DNA from: Lyophyllum atratum
Lineage: Eukaryota > Basidiomycota > Agaricomycetes > Agaricales > Lyophyllaceae
Length of the DNA stretch: 64,000 nt
Direction of reading: 5' to 3'
NCBI GenBank assembly: GCA_014905825.1
Contig: JACGCN010000001.1
Coordinates: forward strand, 3,286,001 to 3,350,000
Part shown: positions 1,325 to 29,910 of the stretch, piece after piece
Position numbering within the stretch: position 1 is the stretch's first letter
Layout: each line of letters begins with the position of its first letter
The notes under the pieces: model-generated
Database searches by the model: none
What the model was told of the DNA's origin: nothing
What the model saw: only the letters and a program-made list of their open reading frames with translations
Made by a program: the position numbers and the translations under genes

Positions 1325-3576
1325 CTATGTATCTTCATCTTCTTCGTCATCGTCCCCTCCGACGTCGTCAATCGTGAGTCCTTCAAATCTACTAGCCGTG
1401 AGCGCGCCCTTGTTTATTCCCTCCTCGTGGTCGTCATCGCTAACATCTTCATCGATCTCTTCTTGACTGTCAGATGCAGCGGAATCTGCTTCTGTATCTT
1501 CTCCTTCGTCGTTGTCGCTTTCTTCTTCCGTCTCGCCGTCTTCCACAGTGGCGCGAGGTATCCACAGGCCTGCTCCTGGCTCTTCCATATGTGCAGCGAT
1601 TGTTTCCACTTCTGTGCCTGGGGGCCAAAAAGCCCAACCAACTCTCCCTTCCGCCAACGATCTGAGGACTGCGTTATGTCAACACCATGCTCATGCTATG
1701 GGACTATGGTTGACCTACTTGCATTGCCAGCTCGATGTATATCTGGTCTCCCTGCCTTGGCCGTGACCCATTTCTTCATATTTGCATACGATGTCAGGAT
1801 ATCCATCGCGGTCCAGACGACTTGCTTTTCCTCCTCCGCAGAGTCAGGTTTCATCCCATCTCGCCATGTTCGCTTGTCCGGGGCGGCTGGTGATGACAAA
1901 CTAGGGTGGGCAAGCTTGTAGACACGTTCGAGCGGGATCCTTTCCGAAGCATAATGTGTGCATGATGGTATGGCGGAGACGCGAGAGATAGGCAAGATAC
2001 CACAGAGAACCTGGTCATACATGAGTTAAAGCGAATGAGAGCATAGTTCTCCTTCTACGACATACCTGCATTTCCATAGGAACGAAATTCGGCATAACGA
2101 GGCCGGGGCAATCAACAAGACGGACGTCAGGAGTCCAGAAGAGGGTCTGGAAGTGCTTGGTCTACACAACGAATTAGCTATCACGTATTGGAAGGTTGAA
2201 CAATGACATTTCACCTTTCCTGGGGTCTTTGAAGCTCGAACTTTACTCGTACCAAATAATGCATTCAAGAGCGAAGACTTCCCTACGTTCGGCTGTCCTA
2301 AAAAACATATCAAACCTCAAGCTCAAAAAGAAACGCGAAGCCAAGCCTTACCGATTAAGCCAACGGTGAGAAATTCAGGCTCTTTCTCTCCTTGCGTTTC
2401 AGTTGAAGAATCCTCGCCACCCGTCCCTTGCGGCCGGGGAAGAGCTGCCCCGCCCACAACAGATCCCACCTTGGAACCACCTGCAGTCAATACACCGTTC
2501 CAATCGATGTCCTTTTTTACGGGTGGTTGCCAGCTCTTGAGCCAATTTGGATTGTTCTTGACCTTCTCTGGGACTTCTAACATCTCAGCATGGACCTCTC
2601 GGATGGTTGCCACCAATCGTTCCCTGAAGCTTTGTGGAAGGTGAGGTTCGTAGTGGGCTCTTCCTTGGTGGCTTACACCTTCCTCCTTTACAGCGTACGA
2701 TTCCACCTGTACTACACGTAAACGCGGGTACTGTCGTTGGAAATATCCCATCCAGGCCGCAGCTCGCTCTGGTCCAGAGATATCAACTTTGGTGAGAACC
2801 AGAATGACTTTTCGGTCTGAGAGATAAGCAGATAGAGATGGTGGGAAATGCAGGAGAGGACAACGAGAATCAAGGAGGACCAGAAGAATCTGTGAGATCT
2901 CAGTTACACGCCATCTGGGAATATCTTGAATTGTGTGGAAGGGTCAAGTTGGTGTCAAGACATACAATTGGCGCCACACTTCAAGGTTCCTTTCAAAGTA
3001 TGTAGGAGACCTCGGCATCGTAGGAACCTCCTTTGGACCTGCTGATTCTTCCTCAGGCAGCGCCGTCTTCTGGTCATCTCCGTTTGACTGTTTCTCGTTC
3101 TGCCAGGCATGAACCAGTCCATCCATCTGCTCAAGCCATTTAGTGAACAGTCCTTCTTCATTGCGCTCCACCTCCTTCTTTGTCATGTCAAATCGCCATT
3201 TTGGCCGACGGGGGCAAGTCAATTTGGGAGCATTTTGATCACTGGCATCGCTATAGATATCGGGAAAGATAGCGACCTCGTTTGGTATGGGGCGATGTAA
3301 CGGGAGTGTCGAGGCCAAGAGCTTAGTATCCTCCAGGAACTTCGGAGGGAGGGTGACAAAAGCGGACTGTAACCGTTTAGCAGCCTGGATGGTCGCAGCG
3401 TTGGCTGGATCTGCTGCCGAGCCTATGAGATTACCAGTTGGGCCTCGTCTTAACTTGGATTTTCGGACTTTCTGCTTTGGATCAGGAGGTGGGACATCGC
3501 CTCGTTTAATCGCACGCTTGAGTTGTATATCCGCTTTCTTCTGACGAGTGGATGTCGGTTTTCGACGGGGAGGCAT
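1325..3576 (-). CDS. GNL1: GNL1-type circularly permuted GTPase (HSR1/MMR1 family)
   Basis: Predicted nucleolar/cytoplasmic GTPase of the YlqF/YawG superfamily, probably acting in ribosome assembly. The N-terminus is lysine/arginine-rich (MPPRRKPTSTRQKKADIQLK), as in GNL1. The block before the GTPase has the GNL1 pattern PRRPKWRFDM and YFERNLEVWRQLY. G motifs occur in permuted order: G4 TKVD (2782-2793), then G1 GQPNVGKSS (around 2272-2298), then G3 DCPG (2102-2113). The C-terminus is a long Asp/Glu-rich tail (1330-1560) after PPGTEVETIAAHMEEPGAGLW-like sequence, again matching GNL1 rather than LSG1 or NOG1. The gene has several short introns (for example near 2020, 2180, 2320 and 2900). The start is the first Met of the basic region. 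It is divergent from the methyltransferase at 3914. Confidence 0.88.
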
Positions 3577-3913
3577 TGTTGAAGTGGCTGTCAGAAACAG
3601 ATAAGGGCAGTATCATGTGATGGCGTCGATTTACTATTTATGCAGGAAAGAAGTTCCTGGGGTTCAAGGCATCGAATTGCCCATTGTACGCACGTATGTA
3701 CCCTGTACTGATCAGGGACCTAGAATGAAATGATTGACCTCGTGTCACCTGTCGGACATCTGCATCACCTTACATCACGATCACCTTTCTGACGACAACC
3801 ATGGTCTGATTATCCCTTGAATCCCTTCTCAGCTCTCGCTGTCCACAATCCCGCCGTTAATTGTTCACAGCGCCCACTTTCGTTCTTAAGCCAGTGGCAA
3901 TTGGCAACGACCA
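3577..3913. promoter_or_regulatory. Divergent intergenic region, GNL1 / methyltransferase
   Basis: 337 bp between two divergent starts, so it must hold both promoters and 5' UTRs. No specific binding site was recognised. Confidence 0.45.
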
Positions 3914-21833: not shown

Positions 21834-21842
21834 GTCGTGCCA
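21834..21842. repeat. Left 9-bp target-site duplication
   Basis: Sequence gtcgtgcca is repeated exactly at 29902-29910. The two copies directly abut the terminal inverted repeats, the arrangement expected of a duplicated insertion target. Nine base pairs is the common length for Mutator-like elements. Confidence 0.85.
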
Positions 21843-21877
21843 GAGTCCAGAGTCGATCAGTCTAAGTCGATCCCATC
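21843..21877 (+). repeat. Left terminal inverted repeat (35 bp)
   Basis: Begins GAGTCCAGA; the inner 26 bp (21852-21877, starting gtcgatcagtctaag) are identical to the reverse complement of 29867-29892. The outer 9 bp match at 5 positions, including the first three. Both ends begin GAG. Confidence 0.9.
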
Positions 21878-22109
21878 AAACGCCCGACGTTTGACAGGAC
21901 CTGTCCCAAAATTCCAACCCTAACCTCGACGTGCTGGCCACTTTGCAAATTCTTGCGGCGCCGGCGCCGTCGTGCACTTCACTATCACTATCACTATCAC
22001 AGACTTCGACGGTGCGTTAGAAAACGTAGTGTATGATCGTCGCTCACTCATTCATTTATCTAGATTCCGACGGATACAAAATGAGCGCAAGTCAGGTAGG
22101 GCGCCTACA

Positions 22110-23553
22110 ATGGAGTCCTCTGGCAACACAGGCCCCTTCAACGCGTGCGTCGCCTTCCAGGAAGCCAGCACGGAGCTCGTCATCTACAGCCCGCTTGTAG
22201 GACAAATCGTAACGGTTGCGTGGTAAGTCGGGCCTTCGTTTATTGTCTCTCGAACATAACTGATAATAATATTGACGCGCGCAGGCCTCTCTATCAAAAC
22301 AAGAGGATCGTTCCAGCAGGTATCAAGTCCTGGCTCCGCAATCGGGGCCTCCACTGGCCTTGCTTTTGCCCTCTCATCTCGGGGAAGTCAGTCTCCGCGC
22401 GGATCGTCGAGTCGCAGCAGGGCGAAGTCTATGTGTTTTGCAACGAATATCCTTCGAGCTGCGGGTTTTTTCGTGAGTTATACATTTATTATTTCATGAT
22501 GCGGCTGCCGTTAACGCTCGACTCAACGACTACAGTTAACCTCACGGCGATACACCATGGTGCGGCTGTAGAGGCCGAGTACGACCTCCCTACGCTCGGT
22601 AAGCCTTTTTTTCAATGCACGTCTTCTCGACCTTACAGCCGCACCAGCTTCTGGACGTAAACCTCCGATGCTCGAGCTCCAGATGACGTTCAACCTGAAC
22701 AGCGCGGACGACGCCGAGCCAGGCCCTTATTTCGAGGGCTATTGCGGCGAACACAGCAGCGACCACCCCGAGGTGGAACAGCTTAGCGGGGGAGAATTCG
22801 TATTCGACCTAGGTACGTATCATCTACTTACTATGCGCTCAATTTGCGAAACTAATCCGTCTTCAAGCCCCAAATCGTCAGACTACCCCGCGCCAGCTCG
22901 CCACGATTAACCCGCGCCGTGAGTTCGCGAAATATTGGATCCATTAACAGATGCTCAAGTGTACATTAGGAAACTTTCATCACGCACGCCTTGTGCCGCG
23001 AACGGCCTCGCTTCCTCACCACCACGCTGGCCACCCCTACGAACGAATCAAGAAACGGCCATCCATGCCCTCGCTTCCGCCATCCATGCCCATGCTTCCG
23101 CCCGCCGCATCCTTGCCTCCGCCCACCGCACCCTTGCTTCTGCCCGCCCTGCCCTCCCTTTCGTCGCCGCCACCGTCCTGCAACATTCCATTTACGTTCT
23201 CCTCGTCCTCGCTTCGCGCCGACTCCCTCTTGCTATACAATTCCCGCCGCGCTTCCGCATCCAGCTCCTCAACGCGTTCCTCGACCTGTAGCAGCATCTT
23301 GGCCCCCTCCCACCCCAATCGCAGCGCATCCACGCATTCGGCGCCCGAATACAGCATCAACCCTCGTAACGAAAGCTTTGTAGACTGGCGCGTTCGAGCG
23401 CTGGACGTTTTCGACCGCCTTCGCGTAGGGGAGGGCGTTCGGCCCCGAGAGTGGGAGGGATTGGTTGAGCAGTGCACCAAGTGCATGGAGATGTTCGCCC
23501 CAGGGCCCCTCAAAGGCCATATTCCAGACTGCGACGGGTCTATTGTTCTGTAA
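22110..23553 (+). CDS. GRF-type zinc-finger protein with C-terminal zinc-knuckle (transposon passenger)
   Basis: Spliced reading after MESSGNTGPFNACVAFQEA gives HWPCFCP, then GEVYVFCNEYPSSCGFF. The spacing C-x-C ... C-x5-C-G-F-F is that of GRF zinc ribbons, which bind single-stranded or structured nucleic acid. After CGFF an intron (22473-22537) leads to LNLTAIHHGAAVEAEYDL and an acidic stretch. If a 51-bp intron (22921-22971) is removed, the frame continues through a Pro/Ser-rich linker to VDWRVRALDVFDRLRVGEG. It ends in CTKCMEMFAPGPLKGHIPDC, a C-x2-C ... H-x3-C zinc-knuckle. Without that splice the first part stops at 22947, and the second part would be a separate ORF from 22951. The one-gene model is my preference. 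Proposed role: nucleic-acid recognition for the element; this is inference. Confidence 0.6.
23060..23160 (+). repeat. Imperfect Pro/Ala-coding minisatellite within the GRF gene
   Basis: Degenerate repeats of about 15-18 bp around the theme cttccgcccgccgcatcc/cctccgcccaccgca. In the chosen frame they encode a PSMPSLPPSMPMLPPAASLP-type linker. The repeats are variable and probably reflect slippage in a disordered linker. Confidence 0.55.
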
Positions 23554-23835
23554 CTTTGCACACGCACTCATCCATGCACGTATTAGCCGCCCGTCTTTAG
23601 TATATGTAGAAATAACGCCCTGGACGTTTTGTTGTAGAGACTTATAGAAGATTTTTTATCACACCTTATGATAGTGAACTCTGACATTGTTCGACAAATG
23701 GGGACATCATCACGTACGTACACATTTACGTTTGTTTAAGGCCACCATGCCACTGATATCAACCTTAAGATCTTTTTCGCGTCGCCTTTCCTGTAGGCCG
23801 CCCCAACGCACTCTCTTCCAAGGTGCGCCCCTTCG

Positions 23836-23931
23836 TATGTTTTGGGGAAGGTGGACGCGTTTGGTCTGGCGCAGAGATCGCTCCTCGGTCACGCCGCGCG
23901 AACCAAACGCGTCCACCTTCCTTGGAACATA
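23836..23931. repeat. 96-bp CpG-rich palindromic repeat, copy 1
   Basis: Arms ggaaggtggacgcgtttggt (23846-23865) and its exact reverse complement (23902-23921) flank a 36-bp loop. The outer tatgtt/aacata ends extend the palindrome imperfectly. By count the 76-bp core holds 11 CpG. The core is identical to copy 2, 235 bp downstream, whereas the sequence between copies has diverged. No target duplication was seen. Confidence 0.85.
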
Positions 23932-24070
23932 GATTCCCACCTTCGCAAGACAAAAAAATTTGCTGACTGGTCTCATTTCGCAGCACACAGGGAACTAGTT
24001 TATCCCACTCCTTCTACTTCACTTTAGGCCGCTCAAACAACGGTACGCTCTTTCAAGGTGCGTCTCAGGG

Positions 24071-24166
24071 TATGTTCTAGGGAAGGTGGACGCGTTTGGT
24101 CTGGCGCAGAGATCGCTCCTCGGTCACGCCGCGCGAACCAAACGCGTCCACCTTCCTTCGAACATA
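24071..24166. repeat. 96-bp CpG-rich palindromic repeat, copy 2
   Basis: Same orientation, length and 76-bp core as copy 1 (arms 24081-24100 and 24137-24156). It ends 66 bp upstream of the dioxygenase start codon, so it lies in the presumed promoter or 5' UTR. Weak similarity extends outward to tagged points near 23795 and 24026 (both aggcc), suggesting an old tandem duplication of about 231-235 bp. Confidence 0.85.
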
Positions 24167-24232
24167 GTTTCCCCGAGTCAACAAAATTCACTCACTGCTC
24201 AAATTTTACAGCACGCAGGGAAGCATCGTGCG

Positions 24233-25911
24233 ATGGATTCAACGGTCTCGCAGGTATGTTGTCCCTTATTCGTCCAGATTGTGGCGTCACTGAGAAAGAA
24301 CGTGCAGGAGGATTTGAATGCTGGATTCGATTGCTACAACCTTCCCCACCTCGACCTGTCTCCGTTGCTTGAGGCTGCCACAAAGAAACAACGATTGGCC
24401 TCGAATACTCAGCCCCTCGACGCAACTCAGCCCTTCGACGCGTCTCTGTCCATCGACGCGTCGAATTCGTCTATTGCTGGCGGCGCCGCCCAACGACTAG
24501 CCCCATACACTCAGCCACCCATCGCGTCTCCATCAATTGACGCGTCGAATTTGTCTCAACCTCCCAACGTGTCGGCCGCCATTGTCGTCGCATCGAACAT
24601 GTCTGATCTCCATGGCGCCGCACGTCACAAGAACGCTCGGAAGATGAAACGCCAGCACAAGCGACTTGTGATGGGCGTTCACATCCGTGAGGCGCGGCTG
24701 AACCTCTCGAACGTCGAACGAGCCGGGAACTACGCAGTTCCGGTTGATCACAGCGAAGCTGCGCATTCCAAACCAGGATACATTGGCCTCCGCGTTCCGA
24801 CAGGCGACTTTGGCGAAGTCAGCGAGCTATTGAAGAAAGGCTTTTCGCTCGTGAAGTACGAAAGGTATGTCTTCAAGGTCTCCTCTTCTGGGGCTAAGCT
24901 CACCATATCATCAGGAAGTCTCGCGCGTTTTCCGACAAGCATAACCGGATCTTTGCAGTCTTCGTCGACCGCCCGCCTGGGATGCTAGGGCTGAACGCAG
25001 AGCTGTGTTCGGCGATGGCTGATGCCCAAGCCAAACTGCTGTTCGGAAAGTCCAGCAATGCGAAGGACTGCTCTACAAAGGTCAAACCTCCCCGACGTGG
25101 AGATTTCCCTACCATCTCAGTCGGGATATCTCATGGTGGCGGACAGCCGGTAAGGCTTTATTTGAGTGAATCCATGTTGATATCTCACACTGAATGTACA
25201 GGAGCCTGGAAATCTAGTCCACTCTGCAGTCAATCAGGAGGTCCTTGACAAACTATTAGACTCCCCTGCCGTGAAACGTACCGCGGCGTTCCAAAGCAGT
25301 GAGTTCCACCCTTTCGAGCTCAACGCCTTTGTATACTGATGTGCGTCTTAGAATGTTATCGTACATGGATGCCCCGCCTTTATGATGCTTCGAACGATGT
25401 CCTGTCGCAACTGCTCGACTGGAAGCCAACACTCCGACGAAACTTTACGAACAGTGTTTACTGCTGCACAACATTCAATTTCGGACCGCATGTCGTTTGC
25501 AGGGGCCATCGCGACCACTTGAATTGGGCACCCGGTGGTTGCATCATCACATCGGGCGGTGAGTTCGATTACGTTCGTGGCGGACATATCGTGCTTGAAG
25601 AAGCCAAACTCATCATTGAGTTTCCACCGGGCTGCTCCGTCATCATACCATCCGCCTGCATTACCCATGGCAACACTCCAATCCTCGAATCGGAGCACCG
25701 CATTTCAATGACACAATATACGGCGGGAGGTCTAGTACGCTGGGTGGATTACAAGTGTCGGTCAGACGCCGACTTCAAGAAACTTGATTGCAAGGGGAAA
25801 AAGGCGATGGATGAGAAGGGGCCTGAGCGTTGGAACGACGGCATTGGAATGTACAGCACCATTGCGGAGCTGAAGGACTTCTGGACTTCAAAGGCAGGGA
25901 CAGCTGCGTAG
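24233..25911 (+). CDS. TET/JBP-like 2-oxoglutarate/Fe(II) dioxygenase (transposon passenger)
   Basis: Predicted oxidase of the TET/JBP family, whose characterised members oxidise 5-methylcytosine or thymine in DNA. Within the double-stranded beta-helix, CTTFNFGPHVVCRGHRDHLN gives the HxD iron motif (H and D of GHRD). GGCIITSGGEFDYVRGGHIV and LIIEFPPGCSVIIPSACITH carry the central strands and the distal iron-binding His. RISMTQYTAGGLVRWVD has the Arg expected to hold 2-oxoglutarate. The N-terminal half is Ser/Ala/Asp-rich (repeats of SIDASN and QPxxAS), then basic (KNARKMKRQHKRL). Introns: 24254-24308, 24866-24915, 25150-25201 and 25302-25351; each restores the frame. Start chosen at MDSTVSQ. 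Fungal TET/JBP expansions are known to be linked to KDZ transposons; here the partner is a different transposase. The actual substrate is untested. Confidence 0.72.
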
Positions 25912-25968
25912 AAACATTTTCTTGTATTGAGTACATAACAAATCTATCTGTATTCGTCTATCATATTC

Positions 25969-28900
25969 CTACGAGCCCCCCGTTGCCGCCATCTCCTCAA
26001 CTGGCATCAAAATAGGAACCTTACCCGTACCTTTGTGGAATAAACCCTTTCCACCTGCAACTACCTTAGTGTACGCGTCCCTTGCCTTTTCCAACGCCGT
26101 CTGAGATTTCGCGAGGTTCTGCGTTAGGTCTGCGTGTCGTTGAGGCTCAACCCTCATATCGGTTCTTGATAGCGCCTCTGTATATCGAACAGCCTCCGCT
26201 TCATGTTTCGAAACTTTGAGCAACGCCTTACGGATCCTACTGTTATGGCCGTCGATTTTCGAATCTTGACTGACAAGTGTTTGATGATGAGCAATAACTA
26301 GTTGCACGTCCTTAGCATGGTTCATGATAATAAAAGACATACATACATTTACGCTTCACGCCCCTTGTTGCGCGTTCCGTAGGGTGGCCTGATTGATATG
26401 ACGGCCGAATTCCAGTGCTCTCGAAATCCTGGACCCCACGTAGCATCAGATGCAAAGGCGTCATATGGATTGGAGTATTTTAACATACCTGAAGCGCCTT
26501 CATGCTTAAAGCGTCAAACCACTGTCCGGTTTTGACGGCGCCTAACAGAGAGAATCCGACGCCTTCGCGGTTGACGTTGGCGTGAACGCTTTCGACGAGG
26601 TTCGTGGTCGAGTCGCCTGAGATCCATACGGCCTTCGGGATATGGCTTCTCTCCCAGCATATCGCTTCGAAGGCGAATTTGCTCGTGACCTTGTTTTGAA
26701 CCCAATCTTTGGTCAAGTTGCGCGCGTTAAGCCTGAAGAAAATACACAGGAATTTGAAGATTTAACTTACCTATTGCTGGTTTTCCTCCGAGCGTCTGAA
26801 TTTTATTGAGCGTGTTTTCCCAGTCGTTATGTGACATACACCACAGGCCGCGCATGAGATTTCTGACGTCTTCGGTTACGCTGCAGCCGCGGATATTTCG
26901 CATGAAGTGTACGTAGCAGAGACGGAAAACCCGATGCAGGTGTTCGTATGGCGACAGGTCCTTCAAAAGGCGATGAGGTTCGTGTAGATCATACTTGGTA
27001 GGATACTGCTCAGCAATCTTTTGTAGATATAAACCTAGGCCTGACGAGGGAAACAGGATTGAGAAAAAAGACATAGATAGATGCGGAGGGTCTGACCTTT
27101 TGCCTGACCGGCATGTTGATCCGCACCCCATTGCAAAAGCAGTCCATTCGTTTCGTCCAGTGAGGACGCATGGATATGTCGCCAGCGAAGGTTACGGCCA
27201 GTGTCGATTTTCACAATGTCATCGAGTGCTTCAAAAAGCAGCTGGTGCGCAGCTGCGGTTTGACGCGTAACAAAAATTCGGCAGAATACGACACCTAGCA
27301 TTCGTAAGCCTCGAGGACGTGTGAGAGACTCGGAAATTAGACTCACTCATGTTTCTAATGCGATCGAAACAGGCCAGCTCAAATTCATAGAATCCGACCA
27401 CACGTTTGAAGCCAATATCGCTCTGTACGTATTGCGTATCCTGGAGTCGCCGGCTCGCTTCCTTGGTCATGCATATAACGAATCGGACATCTTGGCTGCC
27501 TCCCGGAACATGACGGTCGTCCTCCTCGTGAACGGCCATAGTTTCGCCGTCGATGGTGAACGCCTTGCGAATATAATGGTCTTCTGGTTGGAGTGTTTCG
27601 TCTTGCACCTTCTTGAGGTGTAGGAGTCCTGTATAAATGCGAATGTTAGATACAATTGAGATTCAGCTACGACGGAACCAACAGTACCTTCCCAACCCGT
27701 TCCGTAAGGAAAGTTCTTGCTAATTGCTTGGTCGATGTATACCTTGACGTGTTCGCGATTTGAAAGGGAGACGTGGAGGTCGCTCAACAGAGGCGAAGAA
27801 ATCGAGGGAAATCGTGCGGTGAGGTGTGCACGTACAACCGGATGGCGGAGGAATCGCCGTGTTGTGAGGTCTGCGAGACTCCCACCGAGCTTGTCCAGCA
27901 AGGCCATGATCTCGGCGCGAATTACGGGGGGGGTTTTCTGTGGTAGCGGGACAGGATGGGGGTGCGATCCCAAAGCGACGAGTAGTATAAATGGGCATTT
28001 GATTCGATACTCTGCAAGCGGCTCGTAGATACGAAACTTGACTTGACATGGCAAGTGGACCATCTCCGGCTGCATGAGGCTTCCATTTTCAAGGCGATGG
28101 TCAAATGCTATCCCGAAAACGGCACGTCAGTATAAATCAACAGATTTTCAGCAGTAACTCACGACAGCAAACCTTCTGAGCTGAGAAGTTCGTAACAGTG
28201 GTGCACGCGCGCAGGGGTCCGACACCGAGTTCAGACGCAGACTGTTCGATTCGTTCGAGGTCATCCTTATTGTTGTCAAAGTATGCCTTTATGTAGTCGA
28301 AATTGTATCGTGTCTCGTCAACGTGCTGGACGTAGTGGTCGCGATTGATTTGTTTGTTATAATGTTCGCACCTAGATGATAGCAATGCTTGCTTTCAGTA
28401 CGATAGAATCTATTAGAAATGAGAAACCTTACCTGATGTACATATTCACTTCATCATAATGAAGAACCAACCGCCCTTCGCATCTACTCTCGGTGCTGAT
28501 GTATCCGCGTTGCGCCCTCGAAGCTAAACGGCTCTGGAGCTCGCGATCGGCCATTTCTTCTGCTGGTACCTGGGTCTCTTCACCTCGTGGCGCTCTGCAT
28601 CCGATGTTTCGCAAAGCAGCTATCAATGCAGCCGTGTTCCTAAAGACCTCACTCAGTGGCGACAGAGCTGATAAGTGCTGGCTGCGATCTGCTAGAAGGC
28701 GCAGCCTGACATCCTCCCGGCTCGAAGACGTATGCGGCGTTGATAACTTCTCGATATCTGCGCTAGGACAAACCTTTGAACCTTGGCCTACCAAAAACCA
28801 TAACGTTGAAAAAACAGATATTTATTGGATGATTACACAGGTACATACATGTGAAATGGCTCTCCGTGCAAGGAACTAACACGCCCGCGCCGTCCTTGAG

Positions 28901-29440
28901 TAAGGGGTTCGATACCTCGCGTCCATTCTGCGTGCGACCAGAGGGAAAGCCCATGGAATACGCCATCTCGTACGCCGGATTGTGCCAACTGTCGGGGTCA
29001 CGACGGAAAAGGTGTCCGATAGGCTCGGGTGAGCCGGTTTCAGGGTATTCAACGTACGCGTGGACGTCGTTATAGGTGTAGAGCATAGACAGCGTCGTCT
29101 GGCGATTGAGCTTCACGTTACGAGTAACTGTGGGGGTGATGGTCGAAGGGAACGAAGAAGTCGCGAAGTGCTCCCCAGATGAGCGAGGTGAAGGAAATCG
29201 CAGCAGCCTAGGAGGAGGCTGTGGCGCATCCGAAGTCGACGAGGAGGGTCCGCGGCAGGTAGGGGGAATATTCCGAGCCCTGAGATGGTCAAGCAATTTC
29301 GAAAGTGAACTCGCAAATTCGCCGGGAACCAGAACAGGCGCGGAGAGGTCGACCAAGGTGCTGAGCTCGTAGATGTTGGCGGCAATGTCGACTTCGCTCT
29401 CAGAATTCAGCAGCGCGTCAATAGATATACGCGATGCCAT
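25969..29440 (-). CDS. MULE-like DDE transposase
   Basis: Reading through about twelve short introns gives a protein of roughly 950 residues. The N-terminal half has a Cys/His-rich segment (VLVPCTESHFTCQGSKVCP ... YIRCEHYNK) that may bind zinc. The centre begins ALGSHPHPVPLPQKTPP and LTTRRFLRHPVVRAHL, a block I recognise from repetitive agaricomycete ORFs. The likely RNase H-fold acidic residues are D in YVQSDIGFKRVVGFYEFELA, D in LLLQWGADQHAGQAKG, and E in STTNLVESVHANVNREG. The last resembles the TSN-x-x-E helix of Mutator-like transposases. The C-terminus is a charged helix (HEAEAVRYTEALSRTDMRVE, TQNLAKSQTALEKARDAYTK) likely to form a coiled coil. No stop or frameshift interrupts the model. 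It differs from KDZ transposases. Start at 29440 chosen at MASRISIDALL; upstream in-frame Met at 29533. Confidence 0.7.
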
Positions 29441-29866
29441 GGTTTGCTGCAAAAAACGCGTTGTAACTGTGCGCGCAGCGCGATAGCCACTCACCAGTGA
29501 TACGCGCGAAGGACATCTGTGAAGAACTCTCAAGGTACAGTACTATCAATTTAGATACTAGAATTACCACTTACATTCTAGTAGCTTAGTGTATCACACT
29601 TAATTGAAAGCACCAAGTCACTGAACCGAGCGCCGAGGGACGAAAAACAGCAAAGACATTCTCATTTGAGCCATGTAGCGCCCGTGATAATGTCATTCAA
29701 AGGTCTACGAAGCAAAGAAGAGAGGATCTGCAGGGTCACGGACGGAGCAGTCGCCCGTTGGCGTGCCCGACGCCATCAGGATTCTTGCTATTTTTTTCTG
29801 GAGATTGTTTGGCGACGTGTGGCTAACGCGTTTCGGAAAAATCCCGGCTGTCTTATTTGGGCTCCA
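29441..29866. promoter_or_regulatory. Transposase 5' region inside the element
   Basis: 426 bp between the transposase start and the right terminal repeat; it must contain the transposase promoter. No further repeat copy or gene was recognised. Confidence 0.45.
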
Positions 29867-29901
29867 GATGGGATCGACTTAGACTGATCGACCCTTCCCT
29901 C
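29867..29901 (-). repeat. Right terminal inverted repeat (35 bp)
   Basis: Reverse complement begins GAGGGAAGG, and its inner 26 bp equal 21852-21877. It directly abuts the right target duplication. Confidence 0.9.
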
Positions 29902-29910
29902 GTCGTGCCA
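29902..29910. repeat. Right 9-bp target-site duplication
   Basis: gtcgtgcca, identical to 21834-21842. The bases on the outer sides differ between copies, so the duplication is 9 bp, not part of a longer repeat. Confidence 0.85.

Follow-up and report, generated by a model that had tools for sequence, protein, structure and literature searches.

A TET/JBP-like dioxygenase gene in a candidate Mutator/IS256-type transposon of Lyophyllum atratum

Why would a mushroom DNA transposon carry its own gene for a base dioxygenase? The question is raised by an element in a 64,000-bp stretch of the Lyophyllum atratum genome (contig JACGCN010000001.1, positions 3,286,001 to 3,350,000; hereafter the window), where a TET/JBP-like gene (gene 2) stands between a gene for a cysteine-motif protein (gene 1) and a gene for a DDE transposase (gene 3; Table 1). 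We consider it likely that this is an autonomous-looking DNA transposon of Mutator/IS256 type, in which the dioxygenase relieves methylation silencing and the gene 1 product is an accessory. Through DDE chemistry, the transposase would move the element; the dioxygenase would oxidise 5-methylcytosine (5mC) on the element and perhaps elsewhere, and the relieved silencing would allow the element genes to be expressed or the ends to be used; the cysteine-motif protein might assist, perhaps by binding DNA. Anti-silencing is the likeliest function that we infer for the TET gene, and it was favoured because the host encodes DNA-methylase-type proteins (seven PF00145 matches), 5mC fits the predicted pocket, and the gene has been kept and constrained.

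Structure of the element and its further copies

The first-pass annotation of the window had described an intact DNA transposon with three genes free of disabling lesions, and this was borne out by the ends, the duplication and the open gene models. The left terminal inverted repeat reads GAGTCCAGA followed by GTCGATCAGTCTAAGTCGATCCCATC, and the right one, reverse-complemented, GAGGGAAGG followed by GTCGATCAGTCTAAGTCGATCCCATC; the 35-bp length, the 26 identical inner bases and the perfect 9-bp direct repeats were exactly as annotated. When the 64-kb window was scanned for direct repeats of 8-11 bp flanking ends that agreed in 19 or more of 24 bases and were separated by 1-9.8 kb, the pair at 21843-29901 was the only one detected. 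The three gene models, made by hand without transcript support, contained no internal stops. The family labels of the three proteins are less secure than the structure of the element.

The genome assembly (64.8 Mb in 151 contigs, with the window on contig C1) contained 19 matches to the end motif when two or fewer mismatches were allowed, against one for a reversed-motif control, and 14 of the 19 formed seven pairs. Besides the window, these were a second full-length copy of 7,835 bp on C71, with the same ends and its own 9-bp duplication, ATGTTTCAC; a 1,212-bp insertion on C76 between ends of the same kind (L054 3608-4819), with the 10-bp duplication GAGGCAAAGG; a pair on C64 spanning 14.4 kb (the C64:2.77-Mb element); and short non-autonomous elements of 0.7 kb each at C1:271.7 kb, C79:263.6 kb and C110:15.2 kb. 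Perfect duplications flanked all seven insertions, of 9 bp in the window, C71 and C1:271 kb and of 10 bp in C76, C64, C79 and C110, lengths that hold with the ends set at GAG...CTC; for C64, C79 and C110, an offset register gives repeats of 11 bases. Of the five matches left without a partner, two were lone ends next to truncated loci with a TET gene (C67 and C64:602 kb). Because C71 and C76 carry the same kind of ends with duplications of their own, the duplication in the window is more than chance. The first-pass annotation had made its proposal hinge on further copies with the same ends, and C71 and the five other paired-end insertions supplied them. The duplication scan detected no complete element within 9.9 kb around loci L042, L043, L044, L047, L048, L049 and L050. 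An element-free site was present at C148:34672-34863 (L084), with near-identical flanks and 21 bp, including the duplication, absent at the junction; it is a slightly different allele or else the footprint of an excision.

The protein encoded by gene 1 showed a GRF-like CxC...C...C-GFF pattern and a C-terminal C2HC-like motif, and it has a homologue in L. shimeji (P0141). Its earlier labelling as a GRF protein comes down to the four-cysteine pattern: in the Pfam searches, neither PF06839 (GRF) nor any other family was significantly matched, and comparison with the PDB gave no credible match. The seven PDB rows retrieved were repeat proteins (Cake3-Cake10) scoring below 2 bits per repeat, and these were taken as chance.

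Table 1. Positions of the features of the element in the window
Feature	Position	Strand	Details
Whole transposon	21843..29901		8,059 bp, ends GAG...CTC; second copy on C71
Left target-site duplication	21834..21842		GTCGTGCCA, perfect 9 bp
Left terminal inverted repeat	21843..21877	+	35 bp
Gene 1, cysteine-motif protein	22110..23553	+	390 aa; exons 22110-22222, 22285-22472, 22536-22598, 22639-22812, 22868-22918, 22970-23553
Hairpin repeat 1, upstream of TET gene	23836..23931		30-base arms, fold z -7.4
Hairpin repeat 2, related to repeat 1	24071..24166		fold z -9.0
Gene 2, TET/JBP-like dioxygenase	24233..25911	+	507 aa; exons 24233-24864, 24915-25149, 25202-25298, 25352-25911
TET predicted active-site residues	H374, D376, N379, C385, H427, R438	+	within the 507-aa product
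Gene 3, DDE transposase	25969..29440	-	984 aa, 10 exons, 9 GT-AG introns of 49-64 nt
Transposase catalytic residues	D596 27417-27419; D678 27119-27121; E814 26591-26593	-	C727-x2-H730 between D678 and E814
Right terminal inverted repeat	29867..29901	-	35 bp
Right target-site duplication	29902..29910		GTCGTGCCA, perfect 9 bp

The dioxygenase gene and its association with the transposase

The HxD...H iron triad and the 2-oxoglutarate (2OG) arginine were present in the window TET, and its base-reading position holds Asn, which human TET2 also has there. Its best protein match, P0121 of Lyophyllum atratum, was 100% identical, with 86% of the query covered. The model of P0122, the C67 relative, adopted a TET-type double-stranded beta-helix fold that was nearer to TETs than to other 2OG oxygenases, in agreement with the first-pass label of TET/JBP-like dioxygenase, and hhalign of this TET family against PF12851-positive genes gave 92%. 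No Tet_JBP, GRF or MULE match came from Pfam scans of the window TET model or of long stretches of the transposase and gene 1; among 20 dioxygenase genes, ten matched Tet_JBP (PF12851) at E <= 10, the best at 5.8e-5, below the cut-off. The alignments comprised 18/18 homologues and 20 of 30 loci, the ten omitted being near-duplicates, partial matches or L008, which has a stop. All 20 genes had Asn at the position of Gly331 of CcTet, the Coprinopsis cinerea enzyme (PMC11040006), and Cys at that of Asp337, and the structural alignment with CcTet gave about 13-14% identity. Asp337 with Gly or Ser at 331 defines AG-type TETs, as stated for Kyakuja-borne members (PMC12730594), and PE-type TETs have HxE where HxD was present in 20/20. 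Judged by its residues, the subtype without the Gly331 and Asp337 of CcTet is new here.

These residues bear on the substrate, since the enzyme might act on another base, 6mA or thymine. Similarity to the tested enzymes is remote, and the Cys stands where a change of Asp337 abolished the 5mC activity of CcTet (PMC11040006), both of which favour such a substrate; against it, 6mA reportedly clashes, in conventional TETs, with a side chain at the base-reading position (PMC11040006), and this family has Asn there. We regard another base as quite unlikely.

A TET-type gene was present at all seven transposase loci found with one exon, a count that excludes C60, C63 and C67:467 kb, where there is only a C-terminal remnant, and at six of the seven it lay tail to tail with the transposase. 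Four of these carried the window-type TET (the window, C71, C67:865 kb and C64:598 kb, the last two yielding a partial transposase only), and two, C100 and C69, the other TET subtype. At the seventh, C64:2.78 Mb, the TET gene lay about 8 kb from the transposase, between the same ends, and in this C64:2.77-Mb element it is possibly a nested insertion. At C60 and C63, TET adjoined the remnant of the transposase C-terminus. In L. shimeji, three neighbouring locus tags (LshimejAT787_0103900-0103920), in steps of ten and on contig records of identical length, matched the transposase (82%), TET (73%) and gene 1 (58%). At least in Lyophyllum, TET may be a regular component; no comparable link emerged for other fungi. 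The other subtype beside transposase relatives, at L049 3426-3842 and L050 5054-5485, suggests more than one capture; the L049 protein has HRD, followed by Asp at the base-reading position. Separately, L044, L045 and L046 were 99.8% identical over more than 9 kb surrounding a TET gene and a remnant of the transposase, and C67:467 kb and C60 were 99.8% identical across 9.4 kb; the stretch common to the three loci may be a recent duplication, another carrier element or haplotypes.

The same loci bear on whether the TET gene is passive cargo, caught by chance as in gene-capturing Mutator-like elements (MULEs) and doing nothing for the transposon. In favour of this, fragments of host genes are picked up by MULEs (PMC6446971); the TET family, with at least 63 matches to this exon, is abundant enough in this genome for easy capture; and the insertions at C76, C1:271 kb, C79 and C110 have been mobile, yet are too small for a TET gene. 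Chance capture accounts poorly for the recurrent tail-to-tail position, the neighbouring locus tags in L. shimeji, the complete predicted active site, and a dN/dS of 0.11, averaged over the ungapped last TET exon of one pair, window and C71, with dS of about 1.2. Passive cargo appears unlikely. Over the same pair, the average dN/dS was 0.15 for the transposase and 0.16, from three changes only, for gene 1.

A very improbable alternative is that the dioxygenase marks the element's own DNA to guide transposition, in end recognition, excision or repair, rather than relieving silencing. TET-family enzymes can make persistent bases, as with CMD1 and JBP (PMC12730594), and CpG sites are plentiful in the element, since the observed/expected ratio was 1.17 in the window element and the C71 copy vs 0.93-0.95 in the window flanks. 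Against self-marking, short copies without room for TET have moved, perhaps with help in trans, nothing was found tying TET to the element ends, and no further base-modifying enzyme was matched among the three gene models. At other loci, the ratio was 0.72 (L048), 0.78 (L050) and 0.92-1.05 (L042-L044, L047 and L049). High CpG content was considered as a sign of protection; age accounts for it equally well.

Placement of the transposase and weight of the evidence

The transposase contains a DDE triad with C-x2-H between the second D and the E, a motif shared by Mutator-like transposases and also present in hAT and others. Its top structural match was the IS256 transposase ISCth4, indicating an IS256-type fold, and duplications of 9-10 bp with terminal inverted repeats at 7/7 paired insertions lie within the 8-11 bp of Mutator-like elements. 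ISCth4 (PMC7780238) similarly has a DDE domain with a helical insertion; unlike the Lyophyllum element, it is bacterial, produces 8-bp duplications and is a 1.5-kb element with one transposase ORF, and the identity was 11%. In the transposase alignment (70 of 120 listed homologues, 123 being found), a C...C...H-x-H motif precedes the catalytic domain and was kept in more than 90%. This motif presumably resembles the GCM/WRKY zinc motif, a likeness left unproven, as PF03615 was matched in only one of eight slices (E 0.041). Used as profiles against the PDB, the TET and transposase alignments retrieved weak unrelated rows only; single-protein PDB searches gave none, and an NCBIfam search gave weak unrelated rows.

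Several results weigh against the placement and against the anti-silencing reading as a whole. Neither PF10551 (MULE) nor another transposase profile matched the transposase in hmmscan or in family searches of the genome, and because PF10551 was unmatched, we use the label Mutator/IS256-type without filing the element as a sequence-defined MULE family. In addition, hhalign against local MULE and KDZ sequences returned nothing, a weak negative because the comparison sets were tiny; Foldseek alone gave no transposase match at E <= 0.001; and the UniRef name of homologue P0116, 'CxC2-like cysteine cluster', points to KDZ. As for the dioxygenase, 2OG-FeII_Oxy_3 was matched in 11/20 genes vs 10/20 for Tet_JBP, both below the cut-off, the Cys at the Asp337 position is shared by all 20, and two of the six tail-to-tail TET genes belong to the other subtype, with sub-threshold Tet_JBP E-values of 0.035 and 8e-5. 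The dN/dS figures are averages from one pair each, and the argument is built from sequence and predicted structure.

The first-pass annotation had placed the unit as Mutator-like rather than KDZ; the duplications, the DDE triad with C-x2-H, the ISCth4 fold and the lack of a KDZ match agree with this, and support from sequence profiles did not follow. Membership of the transposase in KDZ or a different DDE superfamily would fit the unmatched MULE profile, the UniRef name, and the proximity of the same TET family to KDZ transposases, within 5 kb at 21/60 TET loci (the 63 matches merged when less than 1 kb apart; 66 KDZ positions, with neighbouring fragments omitted). Against it, none of the 120 KDZ (PF18758) profile matches in the genome fell at these transposase loci, the duplications were 9-10 bp vs 7-8 bp for KDZ (PMC12730594), and ISCth4 was the top structural match. 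The CxC profile was matched neither by P0116 nor by 24 other transposase-family members. A KDZ or other DDE origin appears improbable, and Mutator/IS256 remains the placement that we prefer.

Known systems and exchange of the TET block

TET+ DNA transposons of fungi were reportedly described by Iyer et al. in 2014. Eleven TET+ lineages are listed by Kojima 2025 (PMC12730594), and TET-bearing transposons are known well beyond KDZ. They resemble the Lyophyllum element in being DNA transposons with their own TET/JBP-like gene, mushrooms among their hosts and a proposed escape from methylation silencing; they differ in that none of the 11 lineages is Mutator-like and in their TET types, here with Asn and Cys for Gly331 and Asp337 of CcTet, and HxD vs the HxE of the PE type. 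In the text of PMC12730594, the words 'Lyophyllum', 'MULE' and 'Mutator' are absent and 'MuDR' appears only in the introduction. Among the open-licence papers listed by searches, a set that does not extend to subscription titles (Iyer et al. 2014 being one), there was no other report of a TET-bearing Mutator-type fungal element. The Arabidopsis VANDALs, which are MuDR elements (PMC12730594), likewise combine a Mutator-type element with noncoding repeats and their own anti-silencing gene (a candidate in our case); VANC (PMC10398659) is a sequence-specific protein that binds tandem repeats, unlike the candidate base dioxygenase here, which is not known to bind repeats. If our reading is right, a Mutator-type lineage joins the TET-bearing transposons, as a fungal counterpart of plant MULE anti-silencing that acts through a different kind of protein.

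Comparison of the window with C71 (L041) in 100-base blocks showed two mosaic copies, the mosaic being noted at 23943-25942 of the window. They were 98-100% identical over 21843-23642, 96-99% over 26343-27242, and 98-100% over 28843-29842 except for one block of 94%; over the TET block, 24243-25942, identity was only 53-81%, with 84-93% over 25943-26342 and a second divergent stretch of 74-94% in the transposase gene (about 27243-28842). The TET region of C71 (positions 2201-3700) was 80-98% identical to C67, mostly 86-94%, with 76% and 54-60% in the final 200 bases, and in the last TET exon C71 shared 85% identity with C67 and 77% with the window. In agreement, C71, C67, C119 and C60 grouped together in the last-exon tree, and the window and L. 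shimeji sequences fell outside this group, with moderate support (87/82). The simplest reading is that recombination replaced the TET block; converted outer parts would give the same picture. A TET+ Mutator/IS256-type element, with signs of TET block exchange between copies, appears to be new here. We tentatively propose an undescribed Mutator/IS256-type lineage of mushrooms, in which TET is regular at least in Lyophyllum and an exchangeable module, that of C71 coming from another lineage. If true, anti-silencing enzymes would be traded between transposons. The window and C71 copies, whose main differences lie in the TET block and a portion of the transposase gene, offer a natural comparison for whether transposon-borne TET enzymes relieve silencing and, if so, in cis or in trans.

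The left boundary of the divergent TET block coincides with the hairpin repeats, and the 129-nt units around repeats 1 and 2 were 91% identical. Relatives of these repeats also lie upstream of TET in C71, C119, C67 and C60, those of C67 and C60 being blastn matches only. The repeats are of 96 nt in the window, and their count and unit length vary by locus (L041-L046), with four at C119.
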